This document shows positions 806 to 4,325 of a stretch of DNA of 30,631 nucleotides, piece by piece. Numbering within the stretch: the first letter of the stretch is position 1; each line of letters starts with the position of its first letter. The stretch lies in the IMG/VR virus record IMGVR_UViG_3300027833_001225, positions 1 to 30,631 of that record. One strand, given 5' to 3'. Source of the DNA: a virus. The translations under genes were made by a program, and so were the position numbers. The notes below the pieces were generated by a model. The model did not search any database. It saw only the letters and a list, made by a program, of their open reading frames with translations, and was not told the DNA's origin.

Positions 806-991
806 TATGACTCCACTTTCTTGATAACGTTTAATAGTTCTTCTCTAGTAAATATATCTTACAAATGAATGAGTTTCATGAAATGAAACGATTGAATGTA
901 GTAAGGTAAGACACGAAGTGTCTATATACTGTTATAGATGCAACAAATTGTAACAAACACATATAAACTGCTCTAGAACTTATTGTAATAG

Positions 992-999
992 GTTAAATA
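992..999 (+). promoter_or_regulatory. Weak T4-like late promoter
   Basis: GTTAAATA lies 25 bp before the ATG of the haem-copper oxygenase gene, the same distance range as the better GATAAATA/TATAAATA boxes elsewhere in the window. It differs from those at the second or third base, so the call is tentative. Confidence 0.35.
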
Positions 1000-1024
1000 C
1001 TATACAGTTCCAGGAGATATATAA

Positions 1025-2308
1025 ATGAAATATATTACAGCAGCACTAGTAGCTTTATTCCCACTTATCCTATCAGCACAAACATACACTAACGAAGTAG
1101 CAACTATCATCAACGATAACTGTGTAGTGTGTCACCGTTCTGGAGGCATAGGACCAATGGGCTTTGAAACATACGAGCAAGTACGTCCATGGGCACCTTT
1201 AATATCACTTAAAGTAATGAAAAGAGAAATGCCACCTTATGCATACGATCACGGCATAGGCATACAGGACTTGCAAGGTGATTGGCGTTTATCGCAAAAA
1301 GATATAGACACTGTAGTCGAGTGGGTAGATACCGGAGCAAGGTATGGCGACCCTGACAAAGTAGTACAGCCAGTAAACTTAGGAGATCCGGAAGCATGGA
1401 GTTTCGAAGCAGATTTTGGAGCGCCGGATTCAATCATCGCAAGTGTGGCCATAGACATTCCAGCAAGTGGCAACGACTTGTGGCATAAACACAATGTTCC
1501 AACAGGACTAACCGAAGACCGTTGCATTAAAGCAATACAAGTTAAACCACGTGGCAATGCCAAAGCAGTAGTACATCATGCTAACAGCAGTATTATAACT
1601 GAGGGAGGCAGAGTGGGTATGTTAACTGAGTATGCTATGGGAAAGTGGGGAGAGATAGTTCCTGCAGGAGTATGCAGAACTATTCCAGCCAACGCAGAAG
1701 TAGCATGGGATATTCACATGTTCCCAGGTGGACTTGGGGCAATGGCACCAGGATCAGTTATTCGAGACAACGTGGTAGAGATTGGGCTTTGGTTATACAG
1801 CGAAGAGGAAAGCCAAGAATTGAAATACAAACAAGACTTGAGTTTGTATCGCCTAGGAGACCAGGACGATATAGTTATCCCACCACATGGTTATTACATG
1901 ACACAAGGCTTCCACAGTTTTGATCATCCAGTTAGACTAGATAGTTTTCAACCACACGGACACTTGCGTATGAACGCAGCAAGTTTGGAAATATTCTATC
2001 CTGAGACAGGACACACAGAACAAATTAGCCAAGTAAGTAATTGGAGTGCAACATGGCATCACAGTCATTTGTATGATCCAGACGTAGCACCACTCTTACC
2101 AGCAGGAGCAGTTATTGTTCTAAAGCAATGGTATGATAATACAGCAGAAAATCCAAATAATCCAGACCCTGATATGTGGGTAATGGGAGGCAGTAGAACA
2201 GGCGATGAAATGACACATGCCTGGCTTGCTATTACACATCTAGATGATGAAGGATACAATAAACTAAAAGAGGAACGAGATGAAAAAATTAATATTGCTA
2301 GTAAGTAG
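1025..2308 (+). CDS. Exported c-type cytochrome / PHM-type copper monooxygenase
   Basis: A 427-aa protein with a Sec signal peptide (residues 1-19, ...LILSAQ). A short cytochrome c domain has CVVCH at 33-37 and a candidate distal Met in MPPY at 69-72. A C-terminal domain carries what appears to be the full ligand set of copper type II monooxygenases (PHM/DBM family): HH at 184-185 and H231 for the first copper, HGH at 311-313 and M396 (GDEMTHAW) for the second. Family members hydroxylate C-H bonds using O2 and electrons. The fused haem would be a plausible electron donor, and the protein should act in the periplasm. The start has an AGGAG box 8 bp upstream. Such a gene is not a normal phage structural gene; an auxiliary metabolic role is inferred and the substrate is unknown. 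Confidence 0.8.
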   Translation: MKYITAALVALFPLILSAQTYTNEVATIINDNCVVCHRSGGIGPMGFETYEQVRPWAPLISLKVMKREMPPYAYDHGIGIQDLQGDWRLSQKDIDTVVEWVDTGARYGDPDKVVQPVNLGDPEAWSFEADFGAPDSIIASVAIDIPASGNDLWHKHNVPTGLTEDRCIKAIQVKPRGNAKAVVHHANSSIITEGGRVGMLTEYAMGKWGEIVPAGVCRTIPANAEVAWDIHMFPGGLGAMAPGSVIRDNVVEIGLWLYSEEESQELKYKQDLSLYRLGDQDDIVIPPHGYYMTQGFHSFDHPVRLDSFQPHGHLRMNAASLEIFYPETGHTEQISQVSNWSATWHHSHLYDPDVAPLLPAGAVIVLKQWYDNTAENPNNPDPDMWVMGGSRTGDEMTHAWLAITHLDDEGYNKLKEERDEKINIASK

Positions 2309-2453
2309 TATTATTATAACAGGATGTTCTAGTACGGGCTACAATGGACCGCATGAGTTTGATTGGATGCCTCACCCGGTGATATGGGAGAACAATATTA
2401 GAACTTGCAGGAGTGCGGATGTTTGTAGAGCAGAAACACTTTTTATAAGATGA
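2280..2453 (+). CDS. Small lipoprotein (57 aa)
   Basis: The ATG at 2280 overlaps the last 29 bases of the oxygenase gene in another frame. The product starts MKKLILLVSSIIITGC, a clear lipoprotein signal with lipobox I-T-G-C and the lipidated Cys at residue 16. The mature part of about 42 residues is Trp- and His-bearing and has two further Cys (43 and 49). No family is recognised. The overlap suggests translational coupling to the oxygenase, so it may be an envelope partner of that enzyme. An Rz1-like spanin is a less likely alternative because no Rz partner is seen here. Confidence 0.6.
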   Translation: MKKLILLVSSIIITGCSSTGYNGPHEFDWMPHPVIWENNIRTCRSADVCRAETLFIR

Positions 2454-3731: not shown

Positions 3732-3739
3732 TATAAATA
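3732..3739 (+). promoter_or_regulatory. T4-like late promoter TATAAATA
   Basis: An exact match to the T4 late promoter core, with the ATG of the 2OG oxygenase-like gene 17 bp downstream. A second similar box (GGTAAATA) begins about 12 bases further on. Confidence 0.65.
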
Positions 3740-3755
3740 TCCGGTAAATATCAAT

Positions 3756-4325
3756 ATGAAACAAGAAGATTACTTTGCTAAAATAAAAGTAGATGCTACT
3801 AATCTCATAGATAGTTGTAATAAATGGATGACTCAATTTCCTGACTTGATTTATTCATACAGAACAGATTCTGACACATTAGTAGATGTAGCAGATACGC
3901 CCGATAAGGAGTTTGATAAATCGTTCAGAACATTTGATATGTGGCACCCTGAATTAGATTATACTCTTGCTAGTAACACTTTTTTAAAAAAGTTACACAA
4001 AAAATTCCCTATCAATAATATTGCAATAAACAATTTTCATCCAAACTTTTATTATAGGTTACACACTGATTGGAGAAGAGGTGTAGCAATAAACATGCTA
4101 ATAGCAGGCACAGATAGTCATTGTTTATTTGTAGACGATACACATTTTATAGAATTAGACTACAAGCCTGGTGAGATGTATTTGTTTAATACACAAAAGC
4201 CTCATACTATTACAAACTTCTCTGAGCAACGTACACTGTTTTCTATACAGTTTGTAGAAGGTAAAGATACGTTATCATATGATATGATATATGACTATTT
4301 AAAAAATAACGGGCTAGTAGATTGA
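3756..4325 (+). CDS. 2OG-Fe(II) oxygenase-like protein
   Basis: A 189-aa protein with the double-stranded beta-helix iron site: H103-T-D105 (RLHTDWRRG), distal H150 in a PGEMYLFNTQKPH stretch, and R159, which can hold 2-oxoglutarate. These enzymes use O2, Fe(II) and 2-oxoglutarate to hydroxylate proteins or small molecules in the cytoplasm. Members of this type are common auxiliary genes in T4-like marine phages, usually with unknown substrate. The start is an ATG just after a late promoter; there is little room for a strong ribosome site. Its stop overlaps the TTG start of the HD-domain oxygenase gene, so the two are probably made together. Confidence 0.7.
   Translation: MKQEDYFAKIKVDATNLIDSCNKWMTQFPDLIYSYRTDSDTLVDVADTPDKEFDKSFRTFDMWHPELDYTLASNTFLKKLHKKFPINNIAINNFHPNFYYRLHTDWRRGVAINMLIAGTDSHCLFVDDTHFIELDYKPGEMYLFNTQKPHTITNFSEQRTLFSIQFVEGKDTLSYDMIYDYLKNNGLVD

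Follow-up and report, generated by a model that had tools for sequence, protein, structure and literature searches.

Architecture of the locus

The DNA analysed here, hereafter the window, is the 30,631-nucleotide (nt) stretch of viral DNA that makes up IMG/VR record IMGVR_UViG_3300027833_001225. Near its 5′ end, positions 1025–2308 of the plus strand encode gene A, a predicted exported haem c/PHM-type dicopper protein of 427 amino acids. An earlier note had proposed this architecture from the sequence alone, and its open reading frame (ORF), start, stop, and residue numbers (C33-V-V-C36-H37, H184/H185, H231, H311/H313, M396) all proved exact. Judged by inspection, the N-terminus, MKYITAALVALFPLILSA, fits the Sec signal that the note had claimed, with a predicted signal peptide at residues 1–18 (1025–1078), cleavage at about the junction of LSA and QT, and a helix spanning residues 2–9 in the structural model. 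Further along lie the invariant haem c attachment motif CVVCH at residues 33–37 (1121–1135) and Met69 (1229–1231), which sits in an invariant MPP motif and is the best candidate for the distal ligand that had been suggested as possible.

The putative copper ligands occupy the C-terminal part of the protein. Enzymes of the PHM/DBH superfamily hold two coppers about 11 Å apart across a cleft and carry out O2-dependent hydroxylation. In PHM, the CuM site is built from H242, H244, and M314, the predicted counterparts of which are His311-x-His313 (1955–1963), aligned with the HxH of dopamine beta-hydroxylase (DBH), and the thioether ligand Met396 in a DEM motif (2210–2212), placed by the alignment of relatives together with a structural offset. 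The CuH ligands of PHM are H107, H108, and H172 (PMC6123673), to which correspond His184-His185 (1574–1579), aligned with the HH of DBH, and His231 (1715–1717), aligned with its HY and invariant in both gene A and A3. All six ligands that the earlier note had listed are thus present, and they are conserved across viral and bacterial homologues: together with CxxCH and M69, they are invariant in 59 of 59 aligned representatives (52–88% identity to the window protein) and unchanged in 81 viral and 95 bacterial homologues, save for two bacterial rows that end before M396. Such invariance shows that the motifs are not there by chance.

Several other residues are equally fixed. Met45 is likewise invariant in gene A and is replaced by W or F in relatives that retain CxxCH and Met69. 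His345, His348, His398, and His405 are also invariant, the first two belonging to a WHHSH cluster (His345, His346, His348; 2057–2068) that is specific to gene A, invariant or nearly so within it, and occupied by Q and Y in most of the distant relatives. This cluster may tune the active site. In PHM, Q272 belongs to a water network with H108, Q170, and the substrate (PMC6123673), and in our own alignment His345 falls where PHM has Q272, which provides a lead.

Gene A and its operon partners

Gene A is the first gene of a phage operon, a finding added here; its partners in various loci are a lipoprotein, a cytochrome c, and a second haem–copper enzyme. Its 5′ leader (936–1024, plus strand) contains a late promoter-like TTAAATA at 993–999 and a ribosome-binding site, AGGAGA, at 1012–1017. 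This leader of about 90 bases and the first 36 bases of gene A are 73–80% alike in viral loci that differ further upstream (L003–L018). TTAAATA shows no enrichment across the whole window, so a promoter at the leader is only suggested; counts of the late-promoter pattern in the window are no higher than chance, and sigma-70 scans gave the same result. In some viral loci a T4 late-like motif, TATAAATA, precedes gene A. The only exact T4 late-type TATAAATA in the window lies elsewhere, at 3732–3739, 16 bases before an ORF at 3756 with a weak match to endonuclease V.

Immediately 3′, with its start codon inside the end of gene A, lies a small lipoprotein gene (2280–2453, plus strand) of 57 amino acids with the lipobox ITGC and the C-terminal sequence CRSADVCRAETLF. 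Among 80 viral loci, 26 have a member of this lipoprotein family after gene A. The family also occurs in the window and in L081 (a contig of 335 kb from a Neomarinimicrobiota bin), and it was not found in the other bacterial loci examined from the genome collection. In 49 of the 80 viral loci the place of the lipoprotein is taken by gene B, a haem–copper paralogue 26–29% identical to gene A, whose ligands are intact in the copies read; a scan for gene B alone found it in 117 viral stretches. Between genes A and B, nine viral loci carry a small cytochrome c, the one tested of which passes Pfam Cytochrom_C. Lipoprotein and gene B occur together only in L067, which displays the fullest order, namely A, lipoprotein, cytochrome c, B. 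The idea that the window lipoprotein is a decayed gene B with a retained leader was ruled out, as it belongs to a conserved family and coexists with gene B in L067.

The predicted structure of the copper domain matches the PHM and DBH fold

The AlphaFold2 model of gene A, built on the alignment, has a pLDDT of 82.5. When it was compared with the PDB by Foldseek, ranks 1 to 31 were all DBH or PHM (E 4e-11 to 1e-8). VIA-align likewise paired it with DBH (Z 19.6, rmsd 3.4 over 267 residues) and with PHM entries (Z 15.6–18.9), the next fold being PNGase F at a Z of 8.2. Structure prediction, which the earlier note had named as a check, therefore places the fold with DBH/PHM far above anything else (Z 16–20 vs. 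8). Residues 131–410 of gene A superpose on PHM 55–328, and His184 and Met396 lie opposite PHM residues near 108 and about 314, respectively.

The link is harder to see by sequence comparison. Direct Pfam and NCBIfam scans of gene A gave no copper-domain match, and Cu2_monooxygen (PF01082) and Cu2_monoox_C (PF03712) matched none of the 59 members. Searches of PDB sequences with phmmer and the gene A profile found nothing significant, the matches to cytochrome c6 and SMC proteins being no better than chance. One intermediate relative, L157, does score above the Cu2_monoox_C cut-off, and the gene A profile finds it at E 4.6e-25; searched by itself against the PDB, it too gave no link to DBH or PHM. 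The connection was made by adding intermediate relatives to the profile. A 13-sequence profile of wider-family bacterial relatives, gene B, and the window protein (25–85% identity to the first row) has 17 invariant columns; the six copper ligands, as HH, H, HxH, and M, are all among them. Human DBH is recovered by this profile at E 1.6e-5, and its HH, H, and HxH ligands line up with those of the family.

The earlier note had envisaged a profile search against both kinds of family: a cytochrome c model matches 59 of 59 members, with the scores of the window protein itself below the cut-offs, and a direct match to the Cu2 families failed. Because none of the 59 members matches the Pfam copper models and only L157 passes, membership is claimed at the level of the superfamily, by way of fold and profile, and not in the Pfam families. 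At that level, the predicted two-subdomain beta-sandwich, the His-His plus His set for CuH, and the His-x-His plus Met set for CuM, in which H311 and H313 are aligned with DBH, are all found in gene A, and its assignment to the PHM/DBH copper monooxygenase superfamily is supported by the model and by the profile alignment. The proposed haem c plus dicopper architecture accordingly stands on fold, on the DBH match with aligned ligands, and on relatives above the Cu2_monoox_C cut-off.

Gene A shares with PHM and DBH, the copper type II ascorbate-dependent monooxygenases (PF01082/PF03712), the two-subdomain fold, the order and identity of the six copper ligands, and an extracytoplasmic location. 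In contrast to these animal enzymes, it is bacterial and phage-borne, is only about 10–15% identical to them and not recognized by Pfam directly, bears additional invariant histidines (345/348/398/405), and is fused to an N-terminal haem c domain in place of the DOMON (DBH) or PAL (PAM) neighbours.

A probable class I haem c domain

Pfam detects in the window protein only a weak cytochrome c at residues 25–103, scoring below the cut-offs of both Cytochrome_CBB3 and Cytochrom_C. Across the aligned members the families emerge more clearly: Cytochrome_CBB3 matches 59 of 59 (best E 2.2e-5) and Cytochrom_C 56 of 59. The two cysteines, the histidine, and the MPP methionine are invariant across 24 diverse N-terminal domains as well, giving the attachment motif and a likely distal ligand of a c-type cytochrome. 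In the full model, pLDDT is just 50–54 around CxxCH; folded alone, the domain is helical with a pLDDT of 82.7. Its structural matches are mostly cytochromes but weak, the best being PccH (Z 7.4, rmsd 2.0 over 76 residues), with Foldseek E above 1. We regard it as a probable class I haem c domain. Like class I monohaem cytochromes c (Cytochrome_CBB3/Cytochrom_C, PccH-like), it has CxxCH near the N-terminus, a candidate distal Met, and a helical fold, and it differs from them in its weak family scores and in forming the N-terminal domain of an oxygenase. In Pseudohongiella O18 (L147), an ORF for a 289-amino acid redoxin–cytochrome adjoins PHM-domain ORFs that lack a haem motif, an arrangement which suggests that the modules can also act as separate partners.

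Phage setting and distribution

Gene A lies among structural genes. The window encodes a portal (E 5e-120), a head protease, a capsid protein, a tape measure, and a baseplate hub, and the portal is closest, at about 55% identity, to those of PA5oct-type Pseudomonas jumbo phages, which are roughly 287 kb in size. Relatives of gene A were found in at least 193 viral contig stretches of IMG/VR, on contigs of up to 340 kb, which answers the objection that the gene might be confined to bacterial contigs. They occur in several contexts: after a GIY-YIG-like ORF (window, L001, L002, L061–L064), directly after the capsid gene (L047–L052 and others), or after a tail-fibre region (L021–L024, L044).

That cellular DNA had been misclassed as viral, or had contaminated the record, is scarcely credible and was rejected. 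The most numerous relatives outside viral contigs are indeed bacterial, and neither gene A nor gene B was found among the INPHARED isolate phages. Against this stand the genes for portal, capsid, head protease, and tail that share the 30.6-kb record with gene A, the capsid genes that directly precede gene A in other contigs, the clustering of the phage sequences in the tree described below, and base composition: GC is 0.43 for gene A, 0.39 for the window, and 0.36–0.43 in phages versus 0.53–0.59 in bacterial loci. The phage origin of the gene is secure.

PHROGs and BFVD returned no clear relatives of gene A, and the literature search, in which subscription journals and preprints were thinly covered so that an earlier description is possible, found no account of a phage or bacterial haem c–PHM fusion.

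Several features of the surroundings may be recorded in their own right. A partial ORF at 1–402 of the window matches homing-endonuclease (GIY-YIG-type) PHROGs and, better still, a PHROG annotated as NAD synthetase; it is retained ahead of gene A in L001, L002, and L061–L064 and might help the locus to move. The 530 or so bases that follow (403–935) hold no long plus-strand ORF and are about 70% conserved in L061–L064 and 87–98% in L001 and L002. This segment has no Rfam match; neither a tRNA nor an Rfam match was found in the window at large. Fe–S assembly genes lie near gene A in many phages, with an IscA-like gene (PF01521) in 23 viral loci (e.g., L007:4193–4561) and an IscU-like ORF just after gene A in L010.

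Bacterial origin and purifying selection

The earlier note had also put forward a phylogeny against marine bacterial homologues. In a tree of 97 sequences, the phage sequences group together inside marine Gammaproteobacteria, from which gene A came by this sequence evidence; the nesting also makes a gammaproteobacterial host likely. Two bacterial sequences, L082 and L083, separate the main phage clade from an outer pair of phage sequences (L073, L077), a placement that requires either two captures or a single capture with a single return. Between the window and other phages, pairwise dN/dS runs from 0.06 to 0.13 (0.064 at its lowest), and the gene is under purifying selection in phages and kept intact. 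Gene A thus combines residence in genuine phages, derivation from hosts, and purifying selection, as an auxiliary metabolic gene does.

Seven tested gammaproteobacterial genomes with gene A each hold 17–34 members of the wider family, some of which pass the Cu2_monoox_C cut-off. In subsets of loci, the bacterial copies neighbour TonB receptors, an MFS transporter, a PQQ alcohol dehydrogenase, a GMC oxidoreductase, gluconate-2-dehydrogenase subunit 3, and a thiolase. This set points to uptake and oxidation of an organic compound, in which hydroxylation would yield an alcohol for the next dehydrogenase. A conserved 317-amino acid protein without a Pfam match adjoins the bacterial copies in 39 loci (e.g., L084:3219–4169) and was not found in the viral loci examined.

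A few records carry puzzling labels. L128 and L134 come from a record titled as a Klebsiella pneumoniae MAG, probably a mislabelled genome; L128 has four tandem copies of gene A, which group with other Gammaproteobacteria MAGs. In L081 the gene falls inside the phage clade, and in L090, from a Flavobacteriales bin, in or next to it; both look like viral contigs binned into MAGs.

Proposed function and alternatives

Taken together, we consider it probable that gene A encodes a periplasmic copper monooxygenase and serves as an auxiliary metabolic gene for a T4-like phage, probably a jumbo one, that infects a marine gammaproteobacterium. The protein would be exported by Sec, and the host Ccm system would attach haem to its CxxCH, with Met69 as distal ligand. 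The C-terminal two-subdomain beta-sandwich would bind CuH through H184, H185, and H231 and CuM through H311, H313, and M396. Electrons could reach the haem domain from the periplasmic cytochrome pool or, in some related phages, from the small cytochrome c, and would pass on to the copper sites in lieu of the ascorbate used by animal PHM and DBH; by analogy with those enzymes, the natural donor is probably the fused haem c, itself supplied by periplasmic cytochromes. On the same analogy, CuH would relay electrons and CuM would activate O2, which would then hydroxylate a C–H bond of the substrate. A PQQ alcohol dehydrogenase, a GMC oxidoreductase, and TonB receptors beside the bacterial copies fit hydroxylation followed by alcohol oxidation. 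The coupled lipoprotein may tether or assist the enzyme at a membrane, and the phage would gain from keeping up the oxidation of a substrate on which many host paralogues already act. The low pLDDT around CxxCH, the weak structural matches of the isolated haem domain, and the failure to find the 317-amino acid bacterial neighbour in the viral loci examined count against this proposal.

Other activities deserve consideration. The locus stresses electron transfer, through the cytochrome fusion, the additional cytochrome c of nine viral loci, and the second haem–copper protein of 49 in 80, much as expected if the enzyme drew electrons from host periplasmic cytochromes to reduce O2 (or peroxide) with no dedicated organic substrate, keeping up respiratory flux or redox balance during infection. 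Such an electron sink is unlikely, as strong purifying selection maintains every ligand of a dicopper hydroxylase and the 17–34 diversified bacterial paralogues speak more for substrate specificity than for a single generic sink. It is also conceivable that the protein is a cytochrome that binds copper in order to buffer it or to transfer electrons, with no oxygenation at all, because CuM can be lost in this family: three of the redoxin-fused bacterial paralogues aligned lack H311 and H313. The phages have not lost it, however, with all CuM ligands retained in 81 of 81 viral sequences, and copper handling of this sort is very unlikely. Finally, enzyme and lipoprotein might oxidize a cell-surface or periplasmic component, thereby blocking other phages or stabilizing the envelope. 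The export signal, the coupling of gene A to a lipoprotein that is phage-specific in the sample, and its position beside capsid genes in some phages, as is the case for many accessory genes, all accord with this; yet its homologues are multicopy bacterial genes beside transporters and dehydrogenases, no receptor or exclusion motif was seen, and a role in superinfection exclusion or envelope modification seems quite unlikely.

The preferred reading, a periplasmic monooxygenase, can be set against two other systems. Large freshwater phages carry a copper membrane monooxygenase subunit (PMC7674155), and there too a virus bears part of a host copper oxygenase. That subunit, pmoC, belongs to an integral-membrane enzyme whose fold is unrelated, whereas gene A encodes a complete soluble haem–copper enzyme with its own candidate electron carrier. 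In Teredinibacter turnerae, large redox proteins contain cytochrome c-like X183 domains, and X183 is reported to have given no electrons to the LPMO tested (PMC10916295). X183 and the haem domain of gene A are both c-type-like cytochrome modules of marine gammaproteobacterial type and raise the same question of feeding copper oxygenases; their partner domains differ.

Implications

Gene A is a viral metabolic gene, and no earlier report of its enzyme class in phages was found. Most viral metabolic genes known so far work either in the cytoplasm or at photosynthetic membranes. An exported enzyme, a host-derived gene, and sustained selection together imply that this group of aquatic bacterial viruses probably changes a periplasmic oxidation step of its hosts, and infected cells would then spend scarce copper and the host haem-maturation system on a viral oxygenase. 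The phage genes also draw attention to a large family of haem-fused PHM-like enzymes in marine gammaproteobacteria, hardly any of it annotated, and show which of its members is valuable enough for viruses to carry. They offer a compact enzyme that lends itself to testing and that would draw its electrons from a fused haem c instead of ascorbate. More tentatively, and with rather less assurance than for gene A itself, marine jumbo and other T4-like phages could carry a self-contained periplasmic oxygenase unit, made up of A, the phage-specific lipoprotein, a soluble cytochrome c, and B in various combinations, in which cytochrome c replaces ascorbate and host respiration is coupled to substrate hydroxylation. 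If so, this would be a virus-encoded PHM/DBH-type system with its own electron-transfer chain.
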